Assembly (NCBI RefSeq): GCF_900108955.1
Contig: NZ_FNYA01000001.1
Location: forward strand, 620,001-684,000
DNA from: Flavobacterium terrigena
GTDB lineage: Bacteria; Bacteroidota; Bacteroidia; Flavobacteriales; Flavobacteriaceae
DNA: 64,000 nucleotides
Direction: 5' to 3'
Part shown: piece after piece, positions 8,622 to 61,798 of the stretch
Numbering within the stretch: position 1 is the stretch's first letter
How the letters are laid out: each line of letters opens with the position of its first letter
Program-made: the position numbers and the translations under genes
Notes under the pieces: generated by a model
What the model saw: the letters and a program-made list of their open reading frames with translations, nothing else
Databases searched by the model: none
What the model was told of the DNA's origin: nothing

Positions 8622-8650
8622 GTAGCACATAAATTTCTTTTCAAAACACT

Positions 8651-8734
8651 TTTAGTCGTGTCTTCCACTAAATCTTTTATTAATTGTAAAAGAAATTAAT
8701 AAAAGGATACCGCTTCAACCACGGCTAGACTAAA
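8651..8734. repeat. Two-level hairpin element in the DUF5606-mazG spacer
   Basis: Outer arms TTTAGTC...GTG (8651-8660) and CAC...GACTAAA (8720-8734) enclose an inner stem CTTTTATTAATT (8674-8685) / AATTAATAAAAG (8694-8705) with an 8-base loop. Between the stems are similar pyrimidine-rich words TCTTCCAC and GCTTCAAC. It does not code. It resembles hairpin repeats that I associate with Flavobacterium intergenic DNA, from memory only. The rest of the 283-bp spacer (8539-8821) holds the terminator, the short repeat and a heptad array. Confidence 0.5.
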
Positions 8735-8783
8735 CAACTATTTTTTCAAATCATAATTTATCCGTATTTTTATCAAAACAAAC

Positions 8784-8811
8784 CTGAAACTTGAAACTTG
8801 AAACCTGAAAC
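8784..8811 (+). repeat. Four tandem heptads of (C/T)TGAAAC just ahead of mazG
   Basis: TGAAAC begins at 8785, 8792, 8799 and 8806, exactly seven bases apart. The array ends 10 bases before the mazG ATG. A TTG inside it (8798) is in frame with mazG but is part of the array and unlikely to be the start. Confidence 0.65.
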
Positions 8812-8821
8812 AAACTTAAAA

Positions 8822-57908: not shown

Positions 57909-59222
57909 CTAATTCAACATTTCGTTTTTCAAAATTTCACCTACAGCTTTCATTGAAGAAAACTGTTCCACTTGTTTTACTGCATTTTCAGAATATTGTT
58001 TGTATTCTTCTGTAGTTAATTCTAAAATTGTTTGTATCCCTTTTGCTAAATCAACGCTGTCTTTTAGCATCGCTTTGTAGCCATTAAAACCCGTAATTAC
58101 CATATTATTCACTACACCCATATCAAATCCAACTACTGGTGTTCCACAAGCTAAGGCTTCCGAAACCATAAGCGGACCAGAATCTTCTATTGAAGAATTT
58201 ACAAAAACATTAACTGACTGATATAGTAAAGCGAGTAATCTATAATCTTTAATAAAATCGATATGTTTTTTTGAAAAAGGGATTTCATCAAATGATTCCG
58301 AAACATCTCTTGAAACAATAATTACCTCAACCCTATTTTTTTCATCGGCACTCAAATTCTTTTCTAAAATTTTTAAAGATTCAACCAAATATTCAAATCC
58401 TTTTCTTTTAGCTTTGGCATTTTGACATCCCATTAATATGTAAAACTTATGGTCTTCTAATTCAAAAATTCTTTTGGCAATGTCTCTATTTTTATTATTA
58501 AATAGTTTTACATCAATCAGACTATTAACATTAAGTATTACATCCTGATTTTTATATATTTTAGATTCTTTTGCCTGATTTAGTGTCCAACCAGAACCAG
58601 CAAGTATTTTAAATTTTCCTGCCTCAGCATTTTTAAGTTTAATGTCAAAATTTATTTTTGCCAAATCTTTTCCAAATTCGCTTAAAATGGCAGGGCAAGT
58701 ATTACATCCATTAATATAACCTTTACAATCCCAAGCAAAATGGCATCCTCCAGTAAAGTGGTTCATATCAACGGTGATAGTATAAACCTGTGCTTTTGTT
58801 ACTTTTTGTAAATTAAGTAAATCTGTTGAATTCATAAAATTATCAGTCATTCCAGAATAGATAAAATCAGGTGTAAAACCTATTAAATCAACAATTCTTT
58901 CCGCTGAAACATTTACAGAAGTTTCATCAACACTAATAAAATCATAATTTAAATCGAATTTTATCTTTGGTGTAGGTTCTTGTTTTTTTAGCTTCTGTTT
59001 TATTTTTAACAAGAGAAGTTCAAGAATATTTTTTCTTTTAAAGGGTTTAGGAACATCAGTATAAGCAACAATAAAATCATCAGATTTTGTTTTATTTTTA
59101 ACCAACATTTTCACTTGGAAACCATCAGAAACAAAATGTTTTGCTAGTCTGTAAACGGCTTCATAGGCTCCGTTAACATCTCCCGATGAAAGTAATAGTA
59201 TTTTTTTCTTTACTTGCTCCAT
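57909..59222 (-). CDS. Family 4 glycosyltransferase with Cys cluster
   Basis: 437 residues. KILLLSSGDVNGAYEAVYRL at the start, the Cys-rich segment GGCHFAWDCKGYINGCNTCP (about 170-189, typical of a WcaC-like GT4 subgroup) and EDSGPLMVSEALACGTPVVGFD as donor site. The Cys residues may bind a metal. It overlaps the Wzt gene by 13 bases and is the first transferase after the exporter. Confidence 0.92.
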   Translation of the reverse strand: MEQVKKKILLLSSGDVNGAYEAVYRLAKHFVSDGFQVKMLVKNKTKSDDFIVAYTDVPKPFKRKNILELLLLKIKQKLKKQEPTPKIKFDLNYDFISVDETSVNVSAERIVDLIGFTPDFIYSGMTDNFMNSTDLLNLQKVTKAQVYTITVDMNHFTGGCHFAWDCKGYINGCNTCPAILSEFGKDLAKINFDIKLKNAEAGKFKILAGSGWTLNQAKESKIYKNQDVILNVNSLIDVKLFNNKNRDIAKRIFELEDHKFYILMGCQNAKAKRKGFEYLVESLKILEKNLSADEKNRVEVIIVSRDVSESFDEIPFSKKHIDFIKDYRLLALLYQSVNVFVNSSIEDSGPLMVSEALACGTPVVGFDMGVVNNMVITGFNGYKAMLKDSVDLAKGIQTILELTTEEYKQYSENAVKQVEQFSSMKAVGEILKNEMLN

Positions 59223-60460
59223 TGAATTGGCATTTTAAAAATTCCGTTTTCACTATCACCATACTTAAATTCATCTTGAGCAATATTGACAATACTTAAA
59301 TTGGTTTTTTCCATAGGAAAATCTAAAACTCTTACTTTTGGAATATCTAAGGCCAAGCCAATTTTGTAGAAATTTGCTATTAAAGTATCACCCGGTAATT
59401 GAACAACCCATTCCGTAGTTCCAGTAAAATCTAAATCTTTTCTATTGATAAAAACTACATTTTCAAATTTATCCAAGATAGAAAAATTCAATCTTGCTCC
59501 TTTATTTAATAACGTGTTTCTTAAAGTAATATGAATACAAATTTCTTGATCCGAAAAATATTCTATAACATCTTTTCCATCTTTATCTTTTAAAACAACT
59601 TTTAAAATTTGAGCTTCTTTATTTTCATCTAAATCATAGCTAATTCCAGATTGTTGCTCGTTAGAAGAATAGTTTAAAAGATAAGAATCTAAAGTTGAAT
59701 CAATATTTCCATCATGAATTAATTGACCGTGATGTAACAACAATCCTTTGTTACACAATTTTTTTACAGCATCTAAGTTATGACTCACGAACAAAACCGT
59801 TCTTCCTTCGCCTTTACTTACATCGTTCATTTTACCTAAACATTTCTTTTGGAAATCGGCATCACCAACGGCTAAAACTTCATCTACAATTAAAATTTCA
59901 GATTCTAAATGTGCGGCAACAGCAAAAGCTAATCGCACATACATTCCAGATGAATAACGTTTCACAGGTGTGTCAATGTAACGTTCAACTCCAGAAAAAG
60001 CAATAATTTCGTCTAATTTTCTTGCAATTTCGTGCTTACGCATTCCTAAAATAGCTCCATTCAAAAAGATGTTTTCTCTACCCGTTAGTTCTGGATGAAA
60101 TCCTGTACCCACTTCTAACAAAGAAGCAATTCTTCCTTTTGTATAAATTTTACCTGTCGTAGGTTGTGTAACTTGACTTAATATTTTTAATAAAGTTGAT
60201 TTACCAGCTCCGTTTCTTCCAATAATTCCAATGGAATCACCTTGGTTAATTTCGAAATTAATATCTTGTAAAGACCAAACATAATCGCTTTCGCCTTTAC
60301 TACTTCTATCATTCGCTTCGCCAATTTTTAAAAACGGATCTTCCGCACCACGCATTTTATACCACCATCTTTTCATATCATCTTTTATGGTACCTGTTCC
60401 TACAAGTCCCAAACGATATTGCTTAGATATATTTTCCGCTTTTATAACTACTTTACTCAT
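59210..60460 (-). CDS. Polysaccharide ABC exporter ATPase with C-terminal glycan-binding domain (Wzt-like)
   Basis: Powers export of lipid-linked glycan. The 416-residue product has Walker A GRNGAGKST (81-89), signature YSSGM (169-173) and Walker B ILIVDE (189-194) with an N-terminal extension. Residues about 270-416 form an extra beta-rich domain like the Wzt C-terminal domain, which in known systems recognises the modified chain end. The gene is separated from the permease gene by a four-helix-bundle gene. Confidence 0.93.
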   Translation of the reverse strand: MSKVVIKAENISKQYRLGLVGTGTIKDDMKRWWYKMRGAEDPFLKIGEANDRSSKGESDYVWSLQDINFEINQGDSIGIIGRNGAGKSTLLKILSQVTQPTTGKIYTKGRIASLLEVGTGFHPELTGRENIFLNGAILGMRKHEIARKLDEIIAFSGVERYIDTPVKRYSSGMYVRLAFAVAAHLESEILIVDEVLAVGDADFQKKCLGKMNDVSKGEGRTVLFVSHNLDAVKKLCNKGLLLHHGQLIHDGNIDSTLDSYLLNYSSNEQQSGISYDLDENKEAQILKVVLKDKDGKDVIEYFSDQEICIHITLRNTLLNKGARLNFSILDKFENVVFINRKDLDFTGTTEWVVQLPGDTLIANFYKIGLALDIPKVRVLDFPMEKTNLSIVNIAQDEFKYGDSENGIFKMPIQWSK

Positions 60461-60469
60461 TTCTTTTTA

Positions 60470-60497
60470 GTGAGTTGTGAATAGTGAATAGTGAATA
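60470..60497 (+). repeat. Four tandem GTGA-type heptads downstream of the four-helix-bundle gene
   Basis: GTGAGTT then GTGAATA three times, each seven bases long, starting at 60470, 60477, 60484 and 60491. It begins 10 bases from the Wzt start and lies 34 bases from the stop of the four-helix-bundle gene. It is the inverted partner of the array at 60912. Confidence 0.7.
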
Positions 60498-60531
60498 GTT
60501 GGCTTTCCATACTAATCACTATACATATCCA

Positions 60532-60879
60532 CTATTTTTTTAATAAATAATTTTTAAAACCAATTAACAATTTATTAAGTACTATTAATTCGTTTTCTAT
60601 AATTTCATTCCTAACAACATATTTCAATCTAAGTGAAATCAAATATTGTGTTTCAACTTCCGCCAAAGAACCAATCGCAATATGTATAAACTGAATCAGC
60701 TCTTTATCACTCTTTCGCCCAGATCCTTCCGCAATATTTGATGGAATTGAAACCACAGCTCTTCTTATTTGATTTGTCAATCCGAATTTTTCTGAATCTG
60801 GAAAATCATTTGTCATTTGATAAATTGACTCCACCAAATCCATACTCTTTTTCCAAACCTCTAAATCCTTATGATTCAC
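60532..60879 (-). CDS. Four-helix-bundle protein (S23/23S-rRNA-IVS family), GTG start
   Basis: 115 residues, MNHKDLEVWKKSMDLVE... then SIPSNIAEGSGRKSDKEL and SLAEVETQYLISLRL, the signature of the S23 family whose best-known relatives are rRNA intervening-sequence proteins and the Avd accessory protein of diversity-generating retroelements. The start is GTG, inside a GTGAATC word like those in the flanking arrays. No rRNA or reverse transcriptase is nearby. It splits the exporter genes and seems an inserted cassette; function unknown. Confidence 0.9.
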   Translation of the reverse strand: MNHKDLEVWKKSMDLVESIYQMTNDFPDSEKFGLTNQIRRAVVSIPSNIAEGSGRKSDKELIQFIHIAIGSLAEVETQYLISLRLKYVVRNEIIENELIVLNKLLIGFKNYLLKK

Positions 60880-60911
60880 AATCTATATTTCTTTTCACTT
60901 TTCAAAACCCC

Positions 60912-60939
60912 ATTCACAATTCACTAATCACAATTCACT
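60912..60939 (-). repeat. Four tandem heptads upstream of the four-helix-bundle gene, inverted relative to 60470
   Basis: Plus strand: ATTCACA, ATTCACT, AATCACA, ATTCACT from 60912 (seven bases each). Read on the minus strand it is AGTGAAT, TGTGATT, AGTGAAT, TGTGAAT. The permease stop lies 2 bases away. With the 60470 array it brackets the four-helix-bundle gene as an inverted pair. Confidence 0.7.
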
Positions 60940-60940
60940 T

Positions 60941-61798
60941 CTAAACCGTATCCATAAAGGTTTTTTGCGTTTTATTAAAAACTAAAATCCCTAGAAATAA
61001 AATTACTATTGAAAATATGGATGGATATACTAAAGAATACGCATCAAATGAACCAATACCAATATAAGCATATCGCATATATTCGAATAAACCAACAAGC
61101 GGATTCCAATCTAAAACCCATTTGAAATTTTCAGGCACTGCTGAACTTGGATAAATAACTGGTGTTGCATACATAAATAGTTGTATTCCAAATCCGATTA
61201 ATTGATTTAAATCTTTGTACTTTGTAGTCATTGAAGATAAAATAAGTCCAATTCCCATAGAGATCAATGCCATTAATAAAATGACAAATGGAGTTAACAA
61301 TATCCAGATATTAGGAGTGATTTTATTGATTAAAGTATAATAAACGATAAAACACACAAACAATAAAAATTGCACTCCAAATTTCATTAAATTAGAAATC
61401 ACAATGGTTAAAGGCATTATTAATCTTGGAAAATAAACCTTTCCAAATATTCCTGCATTCGCATTAAAGACTCCAGAAACTGAAGTTAAACAATTTGAAA
61501 AATAATTCCACAAAGTAATACCAGCCATATAAAAAATTATTTTTGGTGAATCTTCAGTAGACAACTGAGCAATATTACCAAAAATTACAGTAAAAGTAAT
61601 TGTGGTTAATAAGGGCTGAATAAAAAACCATAAAGGTCCTAAAATAGTTTGTTTATAAACCGTAACGAAATCTCTCTTTACAAACAAAACCAATAAATCT
61701 CTATAATGCCATAATTCCTTAAAATTAATATCAAAAAGAGAATGTTCAGATTCTATTACAGTATCCCATTCATTAGTATTCGTTTGCTTTTTTTTCAT
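60941..61798 (-). CDS. Polysaccharide ABC exporter permease (Wzm-like)
   Basis: Inner-membrane part of the glycan exporter. The 285-residue product has six hydrophobic helices, KQTILGPLWFFIQPLLTTITF and YATPVIYPSSAVPENFKWVLDWNPLVG, typical of ABC-2 permeases for O-antigen and capsule export. First gene of the locus, about 118 bases after the best promoter match. Its ATPase partner lies two genes on. Confidence 0.94.
   Translation of the reverse strand: MKKKQTNTNEWDTVIESEHSLFDINFKELWHYRDLLVLFVKRDFVTVYKQTILGPLWFFIQPLLTTITFTVIFGNIAQLSTEDSPKIIFYMAGITLWNYFSNCLTSVSGVFNANAGIFGKVYFPRLIMPLTIVISNLMKFGVQFLLFVCFIVYYTLINKITPNIWILLTPFVILLMALISMGIGLILSSMTTKYKDLNQLIGFGIQLFMYATPVIYPSSAVPENFKWVLDWNPLVGLFEYMRYAYIGIGSFDAYSLVYPSIFSIVILFLGILVFNKTQKTFMDTV

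Follow-up and report, generated by a model that had tools for sequence, protein, structure and literature searches.

S23 genes are, as a general rule, bracketed by inverted arrays in which AG recurs about five times at a spacing of 7 or 8 nt, and this is the central finding of the present analysis. It concerns a 64,000-nucleotide stretch of the Flavobacterium terrigena genome (the window) and, within it, a cassette composed of an S23 (four-helix-bundle) gene and two heptad arrays between the wzm- and wzt-like genes of an ABC exporter. A first-pass annotation, made from the sequence alone, had placed a GTG-initiated S23 gene at this junction, had described inverted GTGAATA-type heptad arrays on both sides of it, and had read the whole as a small cassette, mobile or domesticated, whose ends are inverted and which lacks its own transposase. 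The open reading frame (ORF) and the family profiles PF05635 and TIGR02436 bear out the gene, two inverted arrays of period 7 do bracket it (Table 1), and the cassette reading is supported, since no ORF of 60 aa or more other than S23 lies wholly between the arrays and no transposase gene is found there. The idea is right in kind and too local. The window lineage recurs at the wzm-wzt junction, the class is widespread, and the ends are not specific to GTGAATA: the word, 7 or 8 nt long, changes from one element to the next, and what the elements have in common is AG at a fixed spacing, about five times.

Inverted AG-spaced arrays at S23 genes

The F. terrigena genome holds five S23 genes, and by eye inverted short-period repeats flank all five, with a different word at each. 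An arm score was obtained by aligning the upstream flank to the reverse-complemented downstream flank, with a threshold of 28; the window element (41) and three others (30, 62, and 34) were positive, and one (L003, 17) was not. The first-pass annotation had pointed to other S23 genes of the genome as possible carriers of GTGAATA arrays; inverted repeats were indeed present at the four others by eye and at three of them by score, but the words differed each time. Across the genus, S23 was present in 60 of 61 genomes at 1-16 copies each (family search, among the matches listed). The genus set comprised the best-scoring S23 loci (30 plus the next 40 in the ranking) and the five of the F. terrigena genome, and is not a random draw; it gave 80 S23 ORFs, 78 of them distinct, and 76 remained after 2 were removed for short flanks. 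Control genes were a random draw of 150 from 227. The median arm score was 31 for the 76 S23 genes compared with 18 for the 150 control genes, 17 for mispaired arms, and 17 for dinucleotide-shuffled ones, and scores of at least 28 were reached by 49 of the 76 S23 genes versus 2%, 1%, and 0%, respectively.

A wide set was assembled from the best 80 of 585 relatives in named genomes, picked by one conserved peptide; 79 were used (L298 was dropped for a short flank), and 46 of these scored at least 28 compared with 0/79 for mispaired arms. Outside Bacteroidota (Ignavibacteriales counted as outside), 13 of 18 wide loci reached this score, the 13 being assigned to deltaproteobacterial groups, Lambdaproteobacteria, Nitrospirae, Acidobacteriales, Anaerolineae, KSB1, SAR324, Ignavibacteriales, and Oscillospiraceae; most non-Bacteroidota loci are metagenome bins, for which single taxon assignments may be wrong. 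At one of the 13 (L271, Oscillospiraceae) the match is a simple palindrome with no array. Nine cyanobacterial plasmid loci and one Riemerella plasmid were hand-chosen for variety from 33 matches, and five of the nine scored at least 28. On these cyanobacterial plasmids the S23 gene lies between two ribonucleotide reductase genes (L310) or is flanked by an AAA-family ATPase gene and a ParB-family gene (L314), and at L309 long heptad arrays stand on both sides and are not complementary (score 11). The S23 gene of L309, like that of L312, lies between cas6 and cas4. Identical arms were found at L054 (G049) and L236 (Flavobacterium sp. SH_e). No rRNA was found in the 20 of 80 named loci that were searched for it. 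The S23 match of L237 and that of L242 contain a stop codon; because stop codons occur inside some S23 genes, part of the elements seem to decay. A gene table for Flavobacterium columnare, one part of PMC5524665, lists a four helix bundle protein between the genes for guanylate kinase and nicotinate mononucleotide adenylyltransferase, which on this listing is another operon-splitting site.

The arms are periodic. In the genus, 76 of 98 arms had a period of 7, 8, 14, or 16, as did 63 of 74 from outside Flavobacterium; other periods were seen in 5 and 1, and the remainder had no clear period. Of the flanks, 53/152 at S23 genes had a clear period (48 at 7 or 8 nt) compared with 33/454 control flanks (20 at 7 nt), so control regions too hold heptad arrays. 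On the 5′ arm strand G exceeded C in 41/49 and 44/46 elements of two sets. The repeat word varies between elements and is common to both ends of one element. AG runs of at least five at exact 7- or 8-nt spacing occurred in 119 of 310 S23 flanks versus 4 of 454 control flanks, and run lengths of three to eight were counted 44, 35, 93, 18, 2, and 4 times, so that 93 of the 310 flanks have exactly five. The next-best dinucleotide, GT, reached 33 flanks, and spacings of 5, 6, and 9 to 12 gave three AG runs of at least five in total. Outside Flavobacterium, exactly five AG were present in 42/132 flanks and at least five in 57/132; outside Bacteroidota, 12/36 flanks had exactly five. Gene-less CTAAG arrays of one genome (G006) with 3, 4, 5, 6, and 7 AG numbered 3, 7, 23, 2, and 1 (23/36 with exactly five). 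In non-coding DNA minus S23 flanks (84 of 848 kb), AG runs of 4, 5, 6, and 20 at spacing 7 numbered 8, 13, 5, and 1, those of 4 and 5 at spacing 8 numbered 4 and 2, and 6 were counted at the remaining spacings between 5 and 12 taken together. Each of the two solved S23 structures, 2gsc and 2rld, contains five chains in its entry.

Arm words, S23 proteins, and dispersed arrays

At conserved sites, the two arms of one element are more similar to each other (30.5) than to arms at the same site in other species (22.5; 58 elements, 222 pairs). Coupling of arm word to protein was measured on elements with an arm score of at least 26 (101 elements), with wide loci of shifted coordinates left out. At unrelated sites, pairs with an S23 similarity of at least 0.7 had a mean arm 4-mer cosine of 0.63 (16 pairs) compared with 0.15 when permuted, and 0/2000 permutations were as high; at a similarity of at least 0.6 the mean was 0.35 (103 pairs), and between phyla it climbed from 0.09 to 0.31. 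The plain rank correlation of S23 and arm similarity over all pairs was weak (rho 0.04; 66/500 permutations as high), a link emerges only once similarity exceeds about 55%, and this was already known when the thresholded test was made.

Genome-wide counts of the words follow the S23 lineages. Carriers of the CTAAG lineage were taken as the 17 genomes that matched with E no worse than 5.1e-40, out of 28 at 1e-30. CTAAG octads had a median of 40/Mb in these carriers compared with 0 in the 44 other genomes of the 61 (p 4e-8; size-matched p 0.001), and in the 15 of 17 carriers whose arm type (CTAAG or CAAAG) was assigned, by eye, the arm variant matched the preferred word of the genome (p 0.014). 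GTGA arrays were present in 20/21 window-lineage carriers versus 129/377 other genomes, and at least 14 GTGA matches in 13/21 versus 24/377 (non-carriers counted by hand). The only one of the 61 genomes without an S23 match among those listed (G041) had 1, 3, and 0 matches to three tested words. Because the cassette arms add to the word counts and the carriers are related, these results are taken as association and not as cause. The first-pass annotation had tied its arrays to S23 genes; arrays do occur widely without S23, but the array word tracks the S23 lineage of the genome.

Gene-less GTGAATA-type arrays are also present in the F. terrigena genome. By eye, they often lie just upstream of a Bacteroidota-like promoter box (L009, L011, L013, L014, and L034), and their C-rich strand runs toward the gene. 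In G006, among the first 20 exact-match solo CTAAG sites of those listed, 8 had a convergent partner within 250 nt, none had a divergent partner, and 12 were without a convergent partner. In the window itself a Flavo-1 RNA (RF01705, minus strand, 8650-8730) sits 48 nt from a gene-less GAAACTT-type heptad array (8779-8813).

The cassette at the wzm-wzt junction

Table 1. Features of the S23 cassette and its neighbors, with positions given in the window.
Feature	Position	Strand	Description
Whole cassette (5′ array + S23 gene + 3′ array)	60469..60939	-	Between wzm stop codon and wzt start codon; relatives share the junction without the cassette
S23 / four-helix-bundle gene	60532..60879	-	115 aa, GTG start, PF05635 + TIGR02436
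5′ array, S23-strand reading	60908..60939	-	AGTGAAT TGTGATT AGTGAAT TGTGAAT GGGG
3′ array, opposite-strand reading	60469..60502	+	AGTGAGT TGTGAAT AGTGAAT AGTGAAT AGTTGG
wzm-like ABC-2 permease gene, upstream of cassette	60941..61798	-	PF01061 3.8e-21
wzt-like ATP-binding subunit gene, downstream of cassette	59210..60460	-	PF00005 1.5e-21

The S23 ORF of the window is intact and belongs to the S23 (23S_rRNA_IVP) family on the basis of PF05635 (1.4e-36; 125.3 bits, cut-off 33.8) and TIGR02436 (1.2e-34; 118.8 bits, cut-off 24); three orthologues (L186, L187, and L205) have ATG at the codon where the window gene has GTG. The AlphaFold2 model shows four helices (mean pLDDT 97), and its best Foldseek matches were 2gsc (TM 0.83-0.91) and 2rld. 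Both arrays were detected by Tandem Repeats Finder with period 7. The 5′ array, on the Wzm side, starts one base past the wzm stop codon and comprises four heptads plus GG, its five NG cores at 7-nt spacing being AG, TG, AG, TG, and GG; the 3′ array, inverted with respect to it and close to the wzt start, comprises four GTGAnTx heptads plus a fifth AG (cores AG, TG, AG, AG, and AG, likewise at 7 nt). As a single word GTGAATA was not enriched in the window (11 seen versus 11.8 expected), which places the signal in the tandem spacing and inverted pairing instead of the word itself. The window arm score of 41 compares with the control-gene median of 18, and the arrays pair in the predicted RNA fold (minimum free energy -124.7 kcal/mol, z -6.45 versus shuffles). 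A 68-aa frame on the opposite strand overlaps the S23 gene and one array. Scanning the junction for promoters and terminators gave five promoter-like sites versus 4.8 in shuffles and no terminator, and Rfam at gathering scores detected no rRNA in the window.

S23 genes were in sense between two co-directional genes at 71/72 resolved genus loci (24/25 resolved sites) and 68/74 resolved wide loci, and antisense between such genes at 0/146 of the two sets combined; small control genes were sense in 95/174 cases and antisense in 13/174. This prevailing sense orientation in Bacteroidota points to host transcripts as the source of S23 there. The window S23 lineage is a recurrent resident of the wzm-wzt junction, since 19 of its 20 closest other homologues (from 398 genus genomes) lie beside Wzt, 18 of them with Wzm too; arm scores of at least 24 were found for 17 of the 20. 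A one-off insertion at this junction was rejected because the closest homologues occupy the same junction. L188 (G062), the single one of these homologues not found beside wzt, has a run of eight GTGA heptads upstream and none downstream. In the first 30 Wzt loci, S23 was at the junction in F. terrigena and G017 only; wzm relatives without S23 (L068, L069, and L070) are about 77-78% identical. On a Wzm tree of 51 rows (S23-bearing rows from the 398 genomes, S23-free rows from smaller samples), the S23 label changes at least 11 times, with 7 changes forced by well-supported branches.

Empty sites, which the first-pass annotation had proposed to look for in relatives, were found in close relatives, with neither gene nor arrays present. 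In the clean pair G012/G187, with flanks 87% and 91% identical, 7 nt from the wzm stop to the first wzt ATG stand against a complete cassette with both arrays; the pair G007/G010 is less clean, G007 being without S23 yet having an array of its own at the junction. One S23 gene of G040 occurs twice in one operon (MarR, fadB, and fadA by eye) at two sites, the gene and 3′ arm aligning at 86% and the 5′ arms having a common word. Neither gene nor arrays are present at the MarR-fadB site of L135, L129, and L115 (30, 77, and 165 nt from the MarR match end), and the site is filled in L250. By sequence comparison, the G040 duplicate and the empty sites fit mobility, with local duplication as an alternative. 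At L090 (402-1492; G056) the wzm-wzt junction holds a nucleotidyltransferase-like gene and a second small gene (MNT/HEPN-like by eye) beside a GTTATCG heptad array, so the junction receives other small genes too. Further wzm-wzt junctions (L071, L076, L068, and L092) hold an acyltransferase-like gene, a methyltransferase-like gene, or long non-coding repeats (names by eye). The junction looks like a general hot spot.

A putative ring reader and its alternatives

On balance we lean toward reading the S23 cassette as a transposase-less element acted upon by its own protein, an S23 pentamer holding one AG-centered repeat per protomer. A ring protein with one AG repeat per protomer is the smallest model that would account for the 7- or 8-nt period together with the AG core, the preference for five repeats, and the crystals with five chains. 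TRAP is a ring protein with eleven repeats at about 5 nt, AG in their core, and a repeat number equal to the subunit number; the S23 arrays would resemble this arrangement in their AG core and in a repeat number that matches the chain number of the S23 crystals, and they differ from it in having five repeats at 7-8 nt, with S23-array binding being putative. In the proposed plan the S23 gene would stand between inverted arrays, each of the form AG-N5/6-AG-N5/6-AG-N5/6-AG-N5/6-AG. As in TRAP, each protomer of the homopentamer would take up one AG-centered repeat of a single strand (RNA or single-stranded DNA), with element-specific recognition provided by the remaining letters of the repeat word. 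By reading its own two ends and the dispersed gene-less copies, S23 would act on the element. The Bacteroidota cassettes, placed in sense inside operons, would probably be expressed by read-through, and the gene may spread together with its two arrays, using catalysis supplied in trans. It is also possible that S23 recognizes DNA ends or both strands, because the gene-less arrays are unbiased, cyanobacterial genes occur in antisense, and wobble mismatches are not enriched. An action of S23 on the exporter RNA, which the first-pass annotation had suggested, is possible, as is an effect on wzt.

Several known systems resemble the cassette in part. Avd of the diversity-generating retroelements works as a pentamer with RNA. 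By Foldseek it has the same four-helix fold as the window S23 (4dwl and 8ub7), the Avd and retroelement-complex chains standing further down the list with weak E-values (TM about 0.7-0.8, E at least 0.17), and structure entry titles place it in the retroelement ribonucleoprotein; unlike at Avd loci, the neighbors of the window S23 are wzm and wzt. Membership in Avd itself was rejected on scores of 26.3 of 80 bits (NF033474) and 20.7 of 40 bits (PF22296). REP/RAYT (REPIN) systems have a resident gene with inverted short repeats, dispersed gene-less convergent pairs, and a word that follows the gene lineage. The S23 cassettes are similar in their flanking inverted repeats, their gene-less convergent pairs (found with the CTAAG word in the relative G006), and the link of word to lineage, and they differ in having a four-helix S23 in place of the HUH/Y1 transposase and, where those systems have a palindrome, arrays of about five repeats. 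An insertion sequence has its own transposase between the ends, and the cassette has none. In the Coxiella 23S rRNA intervening sequence, as the relevant passages of PMC4990558 describe it, an S23 ORF lies in the loop of a 28-bp terminal stem that is cut by RNase III; like the cassette, it has an S23 frame within complementary terminal arms and a length of a few hundred bases, and those passages do not mention a transposase. The S23 frame of the window likewise lies in the loop of a stem with complementary ends, on the basis of the arm score and the predicted fold, and its location is the wzm-wzt junction instead of a 16S or 23S rRNA gene. Unlike the Coxiella sequence, the cassettes occur in varied protein-coding operons and have AG-spaced arms with an element-specific word and dispersed gene-less copies.

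Dispersed intergenic heptad arrays have also been described, in the portions of the two reports concerned, as the TAACTGA family of Beggiatoaceae, Cyanobacteria, and some Bacteroidetes (PMC4679880) and the GGGAATC heptads of Xanthomonas and Nostoc, the Xanthomonas arrays being mostly of four units with many convergent pairs (PMC4692102). They are like the S23 arrays in this dispersal, and GGGAATC is unlike them in having no AG core. A word search of both texts found mention of neither S23 nor four helix, and a mostly open-access literature search, at the level of titles and abstract openings, found no publication connecting S23 with such arrays.

A number of results weigh against the pentamer reading. 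Arm scores were below 28 at 27/76 genus loci and 33/79 wide loci, and at 2/10 multi-species sites there was no excess of within-element arm similarity. The window S23 lineage departs from five, with AG runs of 0 to 18, and in the window non-AG cores (TG or GG) make up 3/5 of the 5′ array and 1/5 of the 3′ array. Three of the nine cyanobacterial plasmid loci (L306, L310, and L313) have S23 antisense between co-directional genes, the other six being sense, so read-through expression cannot be general. No target-site duplication was evident where empty and filled junctions were compared. Gene-less arrays are neutral in orientation (15 same, 13 opposite, and 4 between divergent genes), and wobble-type mismatches between arms were not enriched (39 versus 57 and 37 versus 52). 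The carrier line at E 1e-39 was set after the list had been seen, and lineage carriers are related, so that their word counts are not independent and size matching is a partial correction. Some window-lineage cassettes (L199 and L205) have arrays expanded to 14-18 units. Two candidate statements were given up: that S23 is always in sense, in view of the three antisense cyanobacterial loci, and that RNA pairing is the force keeping the arms alike, which the G-U versus A-C mismatch test did not support.

The arrays could instead form a stem round the S23 frame of an mRNA intervening sequence that RNase III excises, separating or tuning the flanking messages, with S23 incidental or an RNA chaperone. 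The anatomy is that of the Coxiella rRNA intervening sequence, as far as the passages on it in PMC4990558 go, most cassettes sit within operons in the sense orientation, and the predicted fold of the window element, in which the arrays pair, is far better than those of shuffles. However, a stem alone accounts for neither the 7- or 8-nt period nor the mode at five, G-U mismatches between arms are not in excess of A-C, single gene-less arrays are common (the 12/20 sites noted above), and three of the nine cyanobacterial loci are antisense to their neighbors. We consider this explanation unlikely. We find it more improbable again that the arrays are an independent dispersed repeat family, moved or grown by another machine and serving as landing or recombination sites, with S23 as a passenger. 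Arrays are indeed common without S23, also at some S23-free wzm-wzt junctions (e.g., L225), but similar S23 proteins go with similar words even at unrelated sites and across phyla, array counts go with the S23 lineage, and the two arms of an element have one word in common. A further alternative is that replication slippage produced the repeats by chance in AT-rich intergenic DNA, with no link to S23; in its favor, several bacterial groups have an excess of heptameric repeats, for which polymerase slippage has been proposed as one of the causes (PMC4692102, in part). Slippage predicts a falling length distribution where a mode at five was seen, and does not lead one to expect inverted element-specific complementarity; inverted arms are also absent from control gene flanks. 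Chance and slippage were rejected on the basis of the control flanks, the shuffles, the mispaired arms, and the mode at five, and we regard this explanation as very improbable.

The pentamer reading can be widened, tentatively, to one in which S23 proteins are pan-bacterial pentameric readers of a five-fold AG code, and in which one element class, selfish or regulatory and so far unrecognized, would take in rRNA intervening sequences, operon cassettes, the anonymous heptad arrays found across many phyla, and, more distantly, Avd, moving and acting through a ring protein with no catalytic enzyme of its own. The array repeat number would then be set by the protomer number, at both ends and in the dispersed copies, a proposal that we view with some reserve. 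S23 genes occur in many phyla and two S23 proteins have been crystallized, and an array code that matches the apparent S23 oligomeric state provides a concrete, cheap-to-test hypothesis for S23 binding. If it is true, the origin of many unexplained 7- and 8-nt intergenic arrays would be explained and linked to rRNA intervening sequences, and a further class would be added to the elements that travel without a transposase of their own.

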